The notes under the pieces: generated by a model | Told to the model about the DNA's origin: nothing | Database searches by the model: none | The model's input: the letters and a program-made list of their open reading frames with translations, nothing else | Program-made: the position numbers and the translations under genes | Assembly (NCBI GenBank): GCA_017441705.1 | Contig: JAFRWU010000044.1 | Span: 1-43,041, forward strand | Direction: 5' to 3' | Source: Clostridia bacterium | GTDB taxonomy: Bacteria > Bacillota > Clostridia > Oscillospirales > QAMX01 | DNA: 43,041 nt | Shown here: positions 17,378 through 35,747 of the stretch, piece by piece | How positions within the stretch are numbered: position 1 is the first letter of the stretch | How the letters are laid out: each line of letters opens with the position of its first letter

Positions 17378-18895
17378 TCATTCCCTGCTCCCGGCGGCGA
17401 AACAGGAAACGGCTTCCCGGTCGCCGACCGTACCGGCGATCTCCCGGTCCGAGCTTTCTAAATATGCCAGAACGGGCGGATCCCCGGCTTCGCAGGAGCC
17501 GAACTGTCCGAGGGGCAGTCCCAGGACCTGGATATACGTATTTCCGTTCAGGACGGGATAATCCTTCCCGCTTTTGCAGCAGAGGTGGAGAAGACGGTAC
17601 CGCGCGCGGTCAAAGACGTTCCCGCGGATCGAATAACGGCAGGCGGGGTTTTCGAAGTTCCAGCTTTTGACGTGGGCCGGCGTCCAGAAATTGTGCCGCT
17701 GCTGCCCCCATCCGTACCCGGAATAGCGCAGGAAGTTGTTTTCGATCGTCAGTCCGTCCATCCGGCTCCCGGTACCTTCCGTGCCCGAAAGAAAATACTC
17801 GATGGAATAAACGCAGCGTTCGATCAGGTTCCCGGCGTAACGGACGTCTTTCATCACGCAGGTCTCGCCGTTCTGCACGGTGTACTGATGCGTCAAGCCG
17901 GCATCGTAAACCTGATAGACGTAGTTGTTCTCACACAGGTAGTCCTCGCAGCCTCCGTAGATCTCGACGCCGTTTCCGTACCGTGTGACCGTTCCCCGCT
18001 TGCCCTCCGGATAATTGGGATCGGTCCCGAGGTAATGCTGCACGGTGCCTCCGATCCATCCGATCTCGCAGTTGGTGACGTGGAGACCGCGGACGTTTCT
18101 CCCTCCGGCGCTGATCGCGTGCGCTCCGCCGTAGCGGAGGCACAGGTTGTCGATATGAACGTCCGGCGCCTCGCCCGACCGGATCAGATGACGGCCGGGC
18201 AGCGCTTCGATGGACTCGAAAACGGATCCCGGATTGCCCCGGTCGCTCCGCAGATAGAGATCGCCGCGGTTTTCGGCGCGCATGTCCGGCACGGGCCGGC
18301 TTTCCCCATGGGACGGCGCCGTCGTCCAGAGCGCCCTGCAGTCACAGAAGAGATCCAGATCCTCCGTCATTTCCTCCCGCATCAGAAAAGGAACGTCAGG
18401 ACGATCCCGGCAGACGAATCTGCCGTCGATCCAGGAGGGGATCAGCTTTCGGGAATGTCTTTCTCCGTCGTTGAAAACCAGCGTTCCGCAGTCAGGGATC
18501 CTGTCTCTGAGACGATAGATACGCCGTTCACCGTCCCAAAGCTCCCAAAGCGCCGGATCCGCAAGGTTTCTTTCCCAGCCGTAGATCCGCGGCTTTTCCC
18601 CCTCTCCGAACGCCGCGTAGGTGACGCCCGGACGGCATACGACCTGTCCGCGGAAGACGTCTCCGCGGCGGAACCGGACGGCGTCCCCCGGCATCAGCGC
18701 CGCGCCCGTCACCCGGGCGAGGCTTTTCCACGGCTTTGCCGGGCTTGTCCCGTCGTTTCCGTCGTTTCCGTCGGAAGAAACGTAATACGCCGTTCCGGTC
18801 CATTCGGCCCGGTCCTCCGCCCGGCGGATCCGTTCCTTCCATTCTTCCGCTTTCCGGTCCAGTTCTTTCAGAAAAGCATCGTCGGCGATCTTCAT
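17378..18895 (-). CDS. Right-handed beta-helix carbohydrate-active protein (lyase/GH-like)
   Basis: 505 residues from ATG 18895, which follows a GGGGGAG site. After a charged N-terminal helix it opens with YYVSSDGNDGNDGTSPAKPW (about 37-56), the entry motif of parallel beta-helix polysaccharide lyases and DUF1565-type proteins. Repeated helix rungs (N-C-x-I, N-N-x-V/F) follow from about 250 to 450. No signal peptide is visible, so it appears cytoplasmic. It is the last gene of the leftward unit with the GH28-like and epimerase genes. Catalytic residues cannot be assigned; it could be a lyase or a hydrolase acting on pectic or related oligosaccharides. Confidence 0.6.
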   Translation of the reverse strand: MKIADDAFLKELDRKAEEWKERIRRAEDRAEWTGTAYYVSSDGNDGNDGTSPAKPWKSLARVTGAALMPGDAVRFRRGDVFRGQVVCRPGVTYAAFGEGEKPRIYGWERNLADPALWELWDGERRIYRLRDRIPDCGTLVFNDGERHSRKLIPSWIDGRFVCRDRPDVPFLMREEMTEDLDLFCDCRALWTTAPSHGESRPVPDMRAENRGDLYLRSDRGNPGSVFESIEALPGRHLIRSGEAPDVHIDNLCLRYGGAHAISAGGRNVRGLHVTNCEIGWIGGTVQHYLGTDPNYPEGKRGTVTRYGNGVEIYGGCEDYLCENNYVYQVYDAGLTHQYTVQNGETCVMKDVRYAGNLIERCVYSIEYFLSGTEGTGSRMDGLTIENNFLRYSGYGWGQQRHNFWTPAHVKSWNFENPACRYSIRGNVFDRARYRLLHLCCKSGKDYPVLNGNTYIQVLGLPLGQFGSCEAGDPPVLAYLESSDREIAGTVGDREAVSCFAAGSRE

Positions 18896-18961
18896 CCGTC
18901 TCTCCCCCGTTTCCCGTTCGTTATATCTTGGCATTCCGCCGAAAACCCGGCGTGTGCCGGA

Positions 18962-20259: not shown

Positions 20260-21456
20260 TCAGGATAACGCGTTTATCCGCTCGATCAGTTCGAGACACA
20301 TCCGGACGTTGTGATAGGGACAGATCCACATGTCGGCGCGGTTGACGGGACGAGGCGAGAGATCGTCGTAGATCCTCGGGATGTATCCGCCCTTTTCGTG
20401 ATCCCAGAACACCTCCCGAATGCCGTCGAGAACGCGTTCCGCGGCAGCGAGATACTCTTCTTTCCCGGAAAGCGTCCAGGCGTTGAAGGCGGCCACGACG
20501 GTCTCGTTCTGCTCCCACCAGGAATAGTTCGGCCGCATTTCACCGGTACGGGGATCGTATTCGGTGCGAAGGAATCCTTTTTCCGACATGCCTTCGGCAA
20601 GAGAAGCCTCCGTCATGGCGACCGCCAGTTCCTTCGCCTCCCGGATCGGTCCGGGATCACCGAGCACCTCGGCGGCTTCCAGTAGGAGCCACGAGCCTTC
20701 TATGTCATGCCCGTAGGAGGCGCGTCTGTCGGTGGGATGCCACGCGCGGTCGAAATACTGGAAGAAGTGCATGGTCCCGCGGTCCAGGATCGTGTCCGCG
20801 AAGAGGCGGAAGAGCGAGCGGAGGCGCTCCCGCGCCGCCGGATCCTCCGGTTCCAGGCGCGAAAAAGACGTCACGGCCTCGATCGCGTGCAGCGACGTGT
20901 TCATCGTCTTGACCTGGGACGGATCCTCGGCGCAGCCGAGCCTGCTCTCCCTGTCCCATGCCCCGTCGGGCGTCAGGACTTCGTAATACCCGCCGTATTC
21001 CGGATCCCTCGCCTTATCCTCCAGAAACGCGAACTGCCTTTCGGCCGCCGCCTTCGCCTCCGCGCTTCCCAGATCCCGCGCCGCCGCCGCAAGGCCGTAC
21101 AGCGCGAAGCAGTTGGCGTACGTCATCTTATCCGGCTGGGTCGGCACCCCTTCCGGGGAGATCTCCCGCCAGTATCCGCCCCGCGGATCGGCGAACGCCT
21201 TCCGGAAGTACCGTTCGTAATCCCCCGCCGCCGTGCGGTATTTTTCGTCTTTCAGGACCCTCGACGCCTCGGAAAGGGTCCACAGGATCCGGGCGCCGAG
21301 GATCAGCCCCCGGTTCGCCTCGGGATGCGGGACGTTGTTCTCGTCCACGGCTCCGTGGAATCCTCCCGGGAAGACGTCGTAAGTCAGCCACCAGGAAAGG
21401 ATCCTGCCTGCCAGATCCCGGGCCTTCCTCTCCATCCTGCTGCAGGTCTCGTTCAT
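20260..21456 (-). CDS. AGE-family epimerase, cellobiose 2-epimerase-like
   Basis: 398 residues from ATG 21456, 8 nt after AGGAGG. An (alpha/alpha)6-barrel enzyme of the N-acylglucosamine 2-epimerase superfamily. The motifs are closest to cellobiose 2-epimerases: MNTSLHAIEA (His190), GHDIEGSWLLLEA (His250), NYSWWEQNE and CPYHNVRMCLE (His382). Such enzymes invert C2 of the reducing-end sugar of disaccharides. In this locus, with a GH28-like and a beta-helix enzyme, the substrate may be a pectic disaccharide rather than cellobiose (inference). First gene of the leftward unit, with its own divergent promoter. Confidence 0.85.
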   Translation of the reverse strand: MNETCSRMERKARDLAGRILSWWLTYDVFPGGFHGAVDENNVPHPEANRGLILGARILWTLSEASRVLKDEKYRTAAGDYERYFRKAFADPRGGYWREISPEGVPTQPDKMTYANCFALYGLAAAARDLGSAEAKAAAERQFAFLEDKARDPEYGGYYEVLTPDGAWDRESRLGCAEDPSQVKTMNTSLHAIEAVTSFSRLEPEDPAARERLRSLFRLFADTILDRGTMHFFQYFDRAWHPTDRRASYGHDIEGSWLLLEAAEVLGDPGPIREAKELAVAMTEASLAEGMSEKGFLRTEYDPRTGEMRPNYSWWEQNETVVAAFNAWTLSGKEEYLAAAERVLDGIREVFWDHEKGGYIPRIYDDLSPRPVNRADMWICPYHNVRMCLELIERINALS

Positions 21457-21477
21457 AGCCCTCGCCTCCTTTTTTTC

Positions 21478-21506
21478 AGTATAGCAAAACGCCGTGCATT
21501 TGGAAA
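21478..21506 (-). promoter_or_regulatory. Promoter of the epimerase-GH28-beta-helix operon
   Basis: On the minus strand TTTCCA (21506-21501) and TATACT (21483-21478) are 17 bp apart. The start codon of the epimerase lies about 20 bp downstream, giving a very short leader. Confidence 0.55.
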
Positions 21507-21523
21507 GCCTTTTTTTCAAAGGC
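21507..21523. promoter_or_regulatory. Palindrome between divergent promoters (possible operator)
   Basis: GCCTTT (21507-21512) and AAAGGC (21518-21523) form a perfect 6-bp inverted repeat around a 5-nt spacer. It sits directly against the leftward -35 box and 17 bp upstream of the rightward -35 box. The position suits a single regulator controlling both carbohydrate operons. Confidence 0.35.
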
Positions 21524-21540
21524 AATCTCCTTTCGCAAGA

Positions 21541-21569
21541 TTGATTTTTCCCCCGGTTTCCTGTATACT
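21541..21569 (+). promoter_or_regulatory. Promoter of the DraG-FMN-GH140 operon
   Basis: TTGATT (21541-21546), 17-bp spacer, TATACT (21564-21569), 33 bp before the ATG at 21603. Confidence 0.75.
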
Positions 21570-21602
21570 GGGATCAGGACTATACGAAGGGAGTATCGGT
21601 TT

Positions 21603-22964
21603 ATGACGATCCGCGATTTTCAGGATCTTTCCTTTGCCCATTCCTGGGAGCTTTACGGGGAAAATATCCTGACGGAACTGGAACAGACTCTGGAGGAAGG
21701 GCGCGACGTCGAAACGTACCGCGCCGAGGCGGAGCGCATCGCCCGTCTTCCCCGCGGCCGTGAAAAAGAGGAGGCTGCCGACCTTCTGTTTGAAAAGCTG
21801 TACGCCGCGCCGATGCGCAGGAATTTCCCCTACGTCGAGCCTTCCGATCTTGCTTCGATCCGGAAAGAGCGTCCCGAAGACCGTCCCGCTTACGCCAAAC
21901 CCGCCGTGGACGACGCCCTCCGGGACAAGCTCACCGGCGCGTGGCTCGGCCGGGTGTGCGGATGCCTGCTCGGCAAGCCGGTCGAGGGGATGAAGCAGGC
22001 GGAGATCCTCCGCATCGCGCGGGACGAAGGGAACTACCCCATCCGCGACTACTTCGGCGGCAGGCCCGACGCCCTCCGCGCCGCGGGGCACAGTGAAAAG
22101 ACGCTGGAACGCCTCGCCTCCTGTTACCGCCGTGGCTTTATGCCGCCGGACGACGATACCAACTATACGGTCCTCGACGCCGTCAAGGTGATCGGCGAGT
22201 ACGGCCGCGATTTCACGCCCGACGACATGGCACGGGTCTGGCTCTCTTCCCAGCCGGTCACCGCCTACTGCACCGCCGAGCGCGTGGCCGTGATGAACTT
22301 CGTCACAAGCGTCAAGCCTCCCCTCTCCGCCGTCTACAAAAACCCCTTCCGCGAATGGATCGGCGCGCAGATCCGCGGCGATTATTTTGGCTACATCAAC
22401 CCCGGCGATCCGGAAGCTGCCGCTGATATGGCCTTCCGCGACGCCTCGATCTCCCACGTCAAGAACGGGATCTACGGAGAGATGCTTTTCTCGGCTGCCA
22501 TCGCCGCGGCCGCGGTGGAATCCGATCCCGGGAAGATCCTGCGCGCGGGTCTCGGCGAGATCCCGAAAGCCTCGCGCCTGGCCGAAGACGTGGAGACCGT
22601 GATCTCCTGGTTCCGTGACGGCGTGACGGCGGAGGACGCTATGAAGAGGATCCGCACCCGCTGGGACGAATCCAACCCCCATCACTGGTGCCACACGAAT
22701 TCCAACGCCATGATCGTGGCCGCCGCCCTGCTCTACGGCGGCATGGATTACGGGAAGAGCATCGCCATGGCGGTGGAAACCGGATTCGACACCGACTGCA
22801 ACGGTGCCACCGTCGGTTCGATCATCGGCATGGCGAAAGGCGCAGACGCCGTCGGCGATGTCTGGACCTCCGCCATCCGCGACACCGTCGACACCACCAT
22901 CATCGGCTGCGGCATGTTCCGCATCCAGGAGCTCGTAGACCTCACCATGAAGCACGCCGGCTGA
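21603..22964 (+). CDS. ADP-ribosylglycohydrolase (DraG) superfamily protein
   Basis: 453 residues. An extra N-terminal region (about 1-105) precedes the all-helical DraG core. Core motifs are GAWLGRVCGCLLGKPVEG (112-129), the metal ligands in DDDTNYT (183-189) and the second metal site GFDTDCNGATVGS (394-406). Family members cleave ADP-ribose-protein bonds, but many relatives act on small N- or O-glycosides. First gene of the rightward unit, 28 bp before an FMN enzyme and upstream of a GH140 glycosidase. That setting favours a sugar- or glycoside-related substrate over a protein one (inference). Confidence 0.8.
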   Translation: MTIRDFQDLSFAHSWELYGENILTELEQTLEEGRDVETYRAEAERIARLPRGREKEEAADLLFEKLYAAPMRRNFPYVEPSDLASIRKERPEDRPAYAKPAVDDALRDKLTGAWLGRVCGCLLGKPVEGMKQAEILRIARDEGNYPIRDYFGGRPDALRAAGHSEKTLERLASCYRRGFMPPDDDTNYTVLDAVKVIGEYGRDFTPDDMARVWLSSQPVTAYCTAERVAVMNFVTSVKPPLSAVYKNPFREWIGAQIRGDYFGYINPGDPEAAADMAFRDASISHVKNGIYGEMLFSAAIAAAAVESDPGKILRAGLGEIPKASRLAEDVETVISWFRDGVTAEDAMKRIRTRWDESNPHHWCHTNSNAMIVAAALLYGGMDYGKSIAMAVETGFDTDCNGATVGSIIGMAKGADAVGDVWTSAIRDTVDTTIIGCGMFRIQELVDLTMKHAG

Positions 22965-33332: not shown

Positions 33333-33430
33333 ACGTCCCGGCCCCGAAAGCGCGCCAATGAACAGGCCGGACGGTTTTTCCGTTTTCTTCCCTTGCCGGG
33401 AATACGCTGTAAACGACGGGAGGTAATCCT

Positions 33431-35668
33431 ATGTATTCATCCCTCTTGCGGGACATGCCTTACCTTTTGAACAAGTATCACAGAACCGACGAGCCGTTCG
33501 ACCCGTACCGCCGGATGGCTTATCACGGCGGCGAATACGACGAGTCGACGGGGCTTGACGACGCGGAGATGGACTGCGGTCTGAAAGCCCTTGCGGAAGA
33601 AGTATCCGCTCTTCCCCACCCCGTCGCAAAGGCGAAGCTCTTTGCCTATCTTCTGGAAAACGCCAGGATCGACGTGAACGAAAAGGACTGGTTCGTTGGA
33701 TTTTATAACTGGGGCAGACTCCTGAGCCGCTACACGACCGAAATCTGGTCCCGGGAGGTGTTTGCGGGGATCCCCGAAGTGCAGGAAAAGATCGATCTTC
33801 TGGGAGAGGTCGGCGCGGCGGCGATCTGGCCCGATTTCGACCACGTCATCCCGAACTGGGAAGCGCTTCTTACACTGGGCTTTCCGGGACTTCTCGACAG
33901 AGTCCGGTCCTTCCACCGGAAGCGGATCGGGGAAGGGATCACGCCCGAACAGGAGGCGTTTTTCCAGGGCATAGAGATCACCTACGAATCGATCATCAAG
34001 CTTCTGGACAGGTATTACCGGTACGCCTTGACAAAGGACACGGAAAAATCCGGGAAGCAAGCCGCCTGCCTCAAAAACCTCAGGGACGGAAGCCCTTCCG
34101 ATCTTTACGAGGCTCTGCAGGAGATCTATATCTACTTCATCCTCTGCGAATGCGTCGACAATTACCAGACGAGGAGCCTCGGCAACGGCATCGACAGCAC
34201 GCTTCTTCGCTTCTGGCGCAGGGATATCGATTCCGGAAAGTATACCCGGGAGGAGGAAAAGGAATTCCTCGCCTATTTTCTCATGCAGTTCTCCGCGATC
34301 GGCAACTATTGGGGACATCCCATGTATATGGGCGGCACCGGCCCCGACGGGGAAACGCGCTTCAACGAGGTTTCCCTCGCCGTTCTGGAGCTTTACGGAG
34401 AGCTGAAGCTCAGCAATCCCAAGGTACAGATCAAGGTCGCCGAAAACACCCCCAGAGAAATCCTGTACCGGGTGTTCGACCTTATCCGGAAGGGCGTTTC
34501 GCCCTTCGTCTTCTGCTGCGAGCCCGGCCACCGGAGAGCGATCATGGGCTACGGCGCCACCGCCGAGGAAGCGCGGGATTTCGAAATCAGCGGATGCTAC
34601 GAGACCAGAGTGCGAAGCGACGAATCCTCCACCAGCGTTTCGTATATCAACGCGGCGAAGGCGGTGGAATTCGCGCTTTCCAACGGCGCCGACTGGAAAA
34701 CCGGGAAAGAGGCCGGGCTGAAGACCGGCGACGCTTCGGGATTTCAAAGCTTTGACGATTTCTATCACGCCTTTATCCGGCAGTGGGAATACCTGATCGA
34801 GGAATCGATCCGGATCGGGAATTCCTACGAGGGCTTCCTGGCGTATATCAATCCGTCCAACGTCTATTCCGCCACGATCCGCCGTTCTCTGGAGAGAGCT
34901 GCGGACGGCTACGCTTTCGGCGTCAAATTCAACAATTCCGCCATCCTGAACTGCGGATTTGCAAGCGCCGTGGATTCTCTGATGGCTGTGAAAAAGCTCT
35001 GTTTCGAAAAGAAAGCCGTCTCTCTCCCCGAGCTTGCGCAGATCCTGAAAAACAACTGGGAGGGGCAGGAGATCCTTCGCCTGAAGGCTTTCAACCTTCC
35101 CTGCAAATACGGGAATTCCGATCCGGAGACCGATCTTCTGGCCGCCGGCATGGCCGATTATTTCAGCGGCAAAATCAACAACCGGCCGAACGCCCGCGGC
35201 GGCGTATATAAAGCCATCATGCATTCCGCCATGCAGTTCGTGTGGCAGGGGGCGAAGACAGGCGCCCTGCCGGACGGCAGAAAAGCCGGTGCGGAGCTTT
35301 CCAAAAACGCCTCCCCCGTGAACGGAGCCGACCGGAAGGGCGTCACCGCTCTGATCTTTTCGGCGCTGAAGCTCAATCCCTTCAATTATCACGAATCCTT
35401 CTGCGTGGATCTGATGCTTCATCCGTCCGCGGTGGAGGGCGAAAAAGGGCTGGAAGCGCTGTACGATCTCCTGATGACCTACCTGGAGGGCGGCGGGATG
35501 TCGATGCAGTTCAACATATTCGATGCGGATACGCTCCGGGACGCGCAGAAGCATCCCGAGAATTACCGGACCCTCCAGGTCCGGGTATGCGGATGGAACG
35601 CCCTGTGGAACGATCTCCCGACGGCCGAGCAGGACGCCTTTATCCTGAGAAGCGAAACCGTCCGATAG
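33431..35668 (+). CDS. Glycyl radical enzyme (PFL/glycerol dehydratase superfamily), specificity unknown
   Basis: 745 residues behind GGGAGGTAA. Both superfamily hallmarks are intact: the thiyl-radical cysteine loop ISGCYE (Cys389, Glu391) and the C-terminal glycyl radical site RVCGW (Gly721, 25 residues from the end). GC-x-E rather than Cys-Cys argues against pyruvate formate-lyase and for the dehydratase/lyase branch (diol dehydratase, choline lyase and relatives). Residues around the pocket do not match any characterised member known to me. An oxygen-sensitive radical-SAM activase is needed but none is encoded in the window. The upstream neighbour is a histidine kinase; downstream is a terminator. 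Confidence 0.85.
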   Translation: MYSSLLRDMPYLLNKYHRTDEPFDPYRRMAYHGGEYDESTGLDDAEMDCGLKALAEEVSALPHPVAKAKLFAYLLENARIDVNEKDWFVGFYNWGRLLSRYTTEIWSREVFAGIPEVQEKIDLLGEVGAAAIWPDFDHVIPNWEALLTLGFPGLLDRVRSFHRKRIGEGITPEQEAFFQGIEITYESIIKLLDRYYRYALTKDTEKSGKQAACLKNLRDGSPSDLYEALQEIYIYFILCECVDNYQTRSLGNGIDSTLLRFWRRDIDSGKYTREEEKEFLAYFLMQFSAIGNYWGHPMYMGGTGPDGETRFNEVSLAVLELYGELKLSNPKVQIKVAENTPREILYRVFDLIRKGVSPFVFCCEPGHRRAIMGYGATAEEARDFEISGCYETRVRSDESSTSVSYINAAKAVEFALSNGADWKTGKEAGLKTGDASGFQSFDDFYHAFIRQWEYLIEESIRIGNSYEGFLAYINPSNVYSATIRRSLERAADGYAFGVKFNNSAILNCGFASAVDSLMAVKKLCFEKKAVSLPELAQILKNNWEGQEILRLKAFNLPCKYGNSDPETDLLAAGMADYFSGKINNRPNARGGVYKAIMHSAMQFVWQGAKTGALPDGRKAGAELSKNASPVNGADRKGVTALIFSALKLNPFNYHESFCVDLMLHPSAVEGEKGLEALYDLLMTYLEGGGMSMQFNIFDADTLRDAQKHPENYRTLQVRVCGWNALWNDLPTAEQDAFILRSETVR

Positions 35669-35702
35669 GCGGCGCCTCTTTCCTGACACGCCCAGACCGC
35701 AA

Positions 35703-35747
35703 GGAAGCCCCGAAGAGCATATCGGCTCTCCGGGGCTTCCATCTTTT
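35703..35747 (+). terminator. Bidirectional intrinsic terminator
   Basis: A 10-bp stem (35703-35712 with 35731-35740) continues after one mismatch into 5 more pairs (35714-35718 with 35725-35729). T-rich sequence follows. It separates the glycyl radical enzyme gene from the converging GH43 gene. Confidence 0.85.

Follow-up and report, generated by a model that had tools for sequence, protein, structure and literature searches.

A glycyl radical enzyme without a neighbouring activase falls in a separate clade of predicted eliminases

As judged from sequence, the glycyl radical enzyme (GRE) encoded in the window (the whole stretch of 43,041 nucleotides analysed, from a gut bacterium) belongs to a clade, here called GCYE/RVCGWN, that is a separate GRE subfamily and excludes all characterised GREs included in our tree. 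The data are best explained by an intact glycyl radical eliminase that would act on a polyhydroxy substrate of the plant cell wall and be activated in trans, a joint explanation to which we give about an even chance and within which we infer the elimination chemistry, the carbohydrate substrate, and the trans-activation. GREs catalyse reactions managed by few other enzymes, and new GRE substrates have repeatedly exposed gut pathways. Both a pocket signature and an activase clade are particular to this clade, which counts at least 390 relatives in species-level genomes, with no characterised member found among them. The larger point is that one genome holds 11 divergent GREs yet no canonical pyruvate formate-lyase.

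The gene and its product

The GRE is a real gene and not a chance open reading frame (ORF), as evidenced by its structural model, its full-length fold, the identity of its relatives, and its dN/dS. The product matches the Pfam families PFL-like (296 bits) and Gly_radical (82 bits), the latter covering the RVxG loop in the C-terminal glycyl radical domain that is expected of the superfamily. Its AlphaFold model (pTM 0.92; input alignment of 38 sequences) contains the ten-stranded barrel with the Cys loop and superimposes on solved GREs over ~700 residues at 22 to 26% identity (Z 35 to 44), although this comparison yields no single eliminase as a clear favourite. An antisense ORF of similar size (33437-35689, minus strand) was not accepted as a gene, since it arises from GC-rich codon usage. 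The features of the gene are collected in Table 1; a shorter version of the hairpin was also listed.

Table 1. Coordinates of the GRE gene, its diagnostic codons, and adjoining DNA elements
Feature	Position	Strand	Basis
GRE ORF, 745 aa, ATG start, GCYE/RVCGWN clade	33431..35668	+	PF02901, PF01228, tree, model pLDDT 92.7
GGGAGG ribosome-binding-like site, 7 nt 5' of the GRE ATG	33418..33423	+	Sequence inspection
His138 codon, equivalent to GD His164 and HypD His160; 38/38 in clade	33842..33844	+	Residue mapping
Gln246 codon, at the position of GD His281 and HypD Asp278; 37/38 in clade	34166..34168	+	Residue mapping
Cys loop GCYE (Gly388-Glu391) with catalytic Cys389 and Glu391	34592..34603	+	Motif and alignment
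His598 codon, at the position of GD Tyr640; clade-invariant	35222..35224	+	Residue mapping
Gly loop RVCGW (718-722), glycyl-radical site Gly721	35582..35596	+	Motif and alignment
Hairpin GGAAGCCCCG...CGGGGCTTCC, then a T-rich tail; probable terminator immediately 3' of the GRE	35703..35740	+	Sequence inspection

An earlier note on this DNA had placed the catalytic residues of a working-type GRE at Cys389, Glu391, and Gly721 and had assigned the enzyme to the GCxE branch. The positions are exact: in the motifs ISGCYET and RVCGWN, these residues align with C434, E436, and G765 of HypD and with C433, E435, and G763 of glycerol dehydratase (GD), and the branch assignment stands as well, with Cys-x-Glu present and the catalytic residues complete. 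The CxE motif marks GRE eliminases (PMC8473560, PMC7077986), which implies that the window GRE and its clade are predicted eliminases, elimination chemistry being assigned because of this motif (PMC8473560).

The reading frame also bears signs of constraint. Compared with its 64% identical relative L079, the window GRE shows a dN of ~0.28 against a dS of ~1.55. Among 38 aligned sequences it deviates at none of the otherwise clade-invariant columns and at one of the columns that are at least 90% conserved, which is among the lowest counts of the 38, and its GC3 is that of its neighbour genes, with the codon bias of its own genome. Since it matches all clade-invariant positions, the window GRE is, by these alignment data, not decaying.

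Clade placement and the substrate pocket

The maximum-likelihood tree comprised GD, PD, a second PD (9rco), HypD, CutC, YbiW, PflD, Archaeoglobus fulgidus PFL2, and PflB as references, together with the other ten GREs of the window genome. The window GRE was placed in a clade of 44 rows (SH-aLRT 100) that contains none of the characterised references. A scan for the Gly-loop motif in 84,980 species genomes returned at least 390 relatives, of which the best 80 derive from herbivore-gut Clostridia, Lentisphaerae/Victivallales, Planctomycetes, Verrucomicrobia, and Oligosphaera ethanolica, a cultured strain carrying a clade GRE; among these best 80 of 390, the hosts are mostly Clostridia and Lentisphaerae. 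The closest relatives by identity among the matches listed are L080 (71%), L078 (70%), and L079 (64%). The L080 copy (L080:10001-12235, MAG UBA1734) carries one in-frame stop near residue 116 and may be a pseudogene or reflect a sequencing error.

The sequences RVCGW and ISGCYE had been flagged as unlike those of characterised types. The enzyme indeed lies outside all groups tested and its pocket differs, but the two motifs are no oddities. Because Tyr390, Cys720, and Trp722 do not vary among the 38 aligned clade members, RVCGW and GCYE are signatures of a large clade and not quirks of a single protein. Cys389-Tyr390-Glu391 is likewise found in 38 of 38, and the window GRE carries the complete set of clade features, namely GCYE, RVCGWN, a deleted beta2-beta3 segment, His598, and Gln246. 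We found no description of this clade in the literature searched, mostly open papers, and a published similarity network may already place it.

Pocket residues were mapped by sequence alignment, and the mapping is least certain around the deleted segment. The GD residue numbers were checked against the GD sequence. Roles of HypD residues, with comparisons to other eliminases, were taken from PMC7077986. The clade keeps the histidine of GD164/HypD160 (His138) in addition to Cys-x-Glu. At the position of GD Asp447 it has mostly small residues (Ser402 in the window GRE), and it has Gly295 at a position that is Phe or Tyr elsewhere. The beta2-beta3 segment, which holds Lys326 and Ser334 in HypD or Phe333 in GD, is deleted in all clade members aligned. 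By this mapping, the clade has a different substrate site from the characterised eliminases. Because eliminases share no strictly conserved sequence beyond the Cys and Gly loops (PMC7077986), the pocket differences would point to a different substrate without naming it.

Comparison with individual GREs is consistent with this. The diol dehydratases GD (1r8w) and PD (5i2a, 9rco) resemble the window GRE in fold (Z 37 to 40), in the Cys-x-Glu and Gly loops, and in the equivalent of the catalytic His164, but they are only ~25% identical, sit outside its clade (support 100), have RVAGY instead of RVCGW, and retain the Phe333 segment; GD His281, Ser282, Asp447, and Tyr640 are replaced by Gln246, Thr247, Ser402, and His598. 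Every NCBIfam GRE model scored far under its cut-off, the best equivalog being HypD (NF043068; 302.5 bits against 1100). Equivalents of HypD Cys434, Glu436, Gly765, His160, and Tyr450 are kept, whereas Asp278, Asp339, and Phe340 correspond to Gln246, Trp294, and Gly295, Thr645 is replaced, and both Ser334 and the Lys326 segment are deleted. YbiW and PflD (8id7, 8id0), whose structures were solved with 1,5-anhydrohexitol-6-phosphates according to the structure titles, share the fold and, as sugar-type GREs, are the nearest precedent for the substrate class we propose. In contrast to the window GRE, however, they group with GD/PD outside the clade, read GCIE/GCVE and RVAGY, and retain the long loop, and no phosphatase or PTS was seen as an operon partner at clade loci.

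The top VIA-align match to the model is A. fulgidus PFL2 (2f3o; Z 43.6), which also has Trp in its Gly loop (RVAGW) and Gln at the Gln246 position but is 26% identical, lies on a separate branch, reads GCVE, and has the long loop. CutC shares the fold and the CxE motif, but its pocket residues differ, it lies in a separate clade, and its model TIGR04394 gives 203.8 bits against a cut-off of 1050. The sulfopropanediol dehydratase models for HpsG/HpfG (NF048011/NF048009) give 238 and 237 bits against 1000, and that for pyruvate formate-lyase (TIGR01255) gives 76.5 against 994, the latter enzyme having an adjacent double cysteine instead of the single Cys of GCYE. For the isethionate sulfite-lyase IslA, the comparison covered the fold, which is similar. 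Clustering with a characterised group that shares the pocket residues, the outcome that would have spoken against a distinct type, was thus looked for by tree and residue mapping and did not occur.

Activases and activation in trans

At a typical clade locus, the GRE is flanked by a divergent AraC-type regulator and, directly downstream, by an activase; genes of the AraC type were found at 54 clade loci. In 58 of the 73 assessable loci (drawn from the best 80 of 390) a clade activase lies within 5 kb. It is adjacent in 47, of which 44 were recognised by motif scan and three (L119, L135, and L138) by homology, and non-adjacent in 11, leaving 15 loci with none in reach. L078, L080, and L079, the closest relatives among the matches listed, all carry an activase near the GRE. 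These partner activases form a clade of their own in the activase tree. The window GRE lacks such an adjacent partner, a common but not universal feature of the clade: the TIGR02494 genome scan detected no activase in positions 1-43041, and beside the gene, where only 85 bases separate its stop codon from a GH43 gene, no activase remnant was seen. The earlier remark that no activase is present here therefore holds for the window, but "orphan" describes only the local situation, given that 58 of 73 relatives have a clade-specific activase beside or close to the GRE, with none nearby in about one in five.

A search elsewhere in the genome, as had been suggested, returned six activases over the cut-off, none of them inside the clade of partner activases. 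The C6 activase, on a long branch near the base of that clade, is already paired with another GRE; the C36 activase is nearest by score to the clade type (48% identity in an own-genome search with a relative's activase). The lone activase on C19 was considered as the lost partner of the window GRE and rejected, as it groups with the partners of GCWE-type GREs. A GCWE/RVSGW-type GRE on C70 is itself an orphan, so that this pair appears to have been split within one genome. Overall, 11 GREs face six activases, five of which adjoin other GREs, and six of the 11 GREs have no adjacent activase.

Given that the window GRE appears not to be decaying, trans-activation is the simplest reading, and the enzyme is probably activated in trans by a shared activase. 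It would have split off from an ancestral AraC-GRE-activase operon and now be served by another activase of its own genome. The published view gives every GRE an activase of its own, which argues against free cross-activation (PMC8473560). Orphan copies such as this one make it testable whether every GRE needs its own activase.

Two other accounts of the missing activase deserve consideration. The GRE could be a decaying, non-functional relic whose activase has been lost, in line with a locus that has neither activase nor AraC regulator and with the in-frame stop in the GRE of the 71% relative L080. We consider this very improbable in view of the full-length ORF with every catalytic residue kept, the absence of deviations at otherwise invariant sites, the strong purifying signal, and the own-genome codon bias. 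Alternatively, the activase may be missing only apparently, owing to an assembly gap or to a region that varies between strains, with the enzyme otherwise as in our preferred explanation. The genome is a draft of 120 contigs (98.4% complete), and the nearest relatives among the matches listed do hold the activase in the operon. Yet the GRE sits far from the ends of its 108-kb contig and is flanked on either side by intact genes that are not activases, the own-genome search with a relative's activase found only the six others, and the 15 of 73 other clade members without an activase in reach show that the situation recurs, making this account unlikely.

The 11 divergent GREs of the window genome reside on contigs C54, C20, C98, C6, C97, C102, C70, C42, C74, C83, and C36, and none is a canonical pyruvate formate-lyase, the best match reaching 345 bits against 700 to 900 for the strongest matches in other genomes. 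Those on C54, C42, C83, and C36 lack the GCxE motif in a pattern search and may not be eliminases. In a first-look count, at least 11 GRE candidates were present in only five of 293 Clostridia genomes that were at least 90% complete, the window genome included, and relatives of the same genus or family (G001, G003, and G007) have 18 to 19 GRE matches. More tentatively, and with confidence well short of even, we propose that the GCYE/RVCGWN clade is a new functional GRE class for radical dehydration or C-O cleavage of a sugar, sugar acid, or lactone that comes from the plant cell wall and is not phosphorylated, and that GREs have multiplied in this genus (11 to 18+ per genome), some having lost their own activase and sharing a common one.

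Gene neighbourhoods and candidate substrates

In the window, GH43 and xylose-isomerase-like genes are convergent with the GRE, which is not co-directional with any sugar gene. At clade loci, the genes between GRE and activase, which probably share the GRE transcription unit, include SMP-30/gluconolactonases (L092, L098, L107, and L110), GDSL or SASA carbohydrate esterases (L082, L098, and L107), and EamA transporters (L078, L092, and L110). The L078 and L080 loci, those of the two nearest relatives among the matches listed, run on into L-rhamnose isomerase (RhaA) and a GDSL esterase, with DUF4867 and RhaM in addition at L078, and at L091 genes for an alpha-L-rhamnosidase and a BD-FAE esterase lie upstream of the GRE. 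Together with the window neighbours, these operon partners point to a plant cell-wall carbohydrate derivative. The partners vary, however, and the genomes are probably glycan rich, so that background may account for some of the link to carbohydrates. The earlier suggestion of a sugar acid or diol is plausible, with circumstantial support from the relatives' operon partners.

In the mechanism we envisage, an activase would place the radical on Gly721, from where it would move to Cys389, which in turn would abstract a hydrogen atom from a vicinal-diol-like substrate carbon. Glu391 with His138 would handle the substrate hydroxyl, and a neighbouring group, most likely water, would leave, yielding a deoxy carbonyl product. 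The substrate would most likely be a small polyhydroxy compound of plant cell-wall glycans, such as a deoxy-sugar, an aldonate or lactone, an anhydro-sugar, or a polyol.

The main specific rival substrate is 1,2-propanediol, for which the predicted pocket fit is poor. A non-canonical propanediol dehydratase would complete a route from rhamnose via lactaldehyde to propanediol, dehydrated outside a microcompartment, and RhaA in the GRE operons of the two closest relatives among the matches listed (one also with RhaM), the alpha-L-rhamnosidase near another, and the presence of RhaA in the window genome would suit it. The diol dehydratase pocket is mostly replaced, though (His281, Ser282, Asp447, Tyr640, and the aromatic at 333/339), the PD/GD clade is distant in the tree, no BMC shell gene was found in the window genome, and rhamnose genes were not seen near most clade members; we hold this route to be decidedly unlikely. 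Somewhat less improbable, but still doubtful, is a trans-activated GRE eliminase that cleaves C-N, C-S, or amino-acid-derived C-O bonds in a non-carbohydrate substrate. Known eliminases do include choline, hydroxyproline, and isethionate types among which the fold does not discriminate, and carboxymuconolactone-decarboxylase-like and amidohydrolase genes occur at some clade loci. Against this stand the lactonase and carbohydrate esterases between GRE and activase, the fact that no amino-acid or sulfonate pathway was recognised near clade GREs, and scores far under the CutC, HypD, and sulfopropanediol dehydratase cut-offs.

Some further genes were noted at these loci. A 649-aa protein is encoded between GRE and activase in both L078 (L078:13176-15122) and L080 (L080:12263-14209); it has no Pfam or PDB match, and the window genome holds only a 28% partial match. 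Within the window, the ORFs at 17381-18934 (minus strand, 518 aa) and 20707-21603 (plus strand, 299 aa) likewise have no Pfam match. An apiosidase-like gene (PF13204; 23924-25225, plus strand) lies 8 kb upstream of the GRE and suggests the use of apiose-containing pectin.
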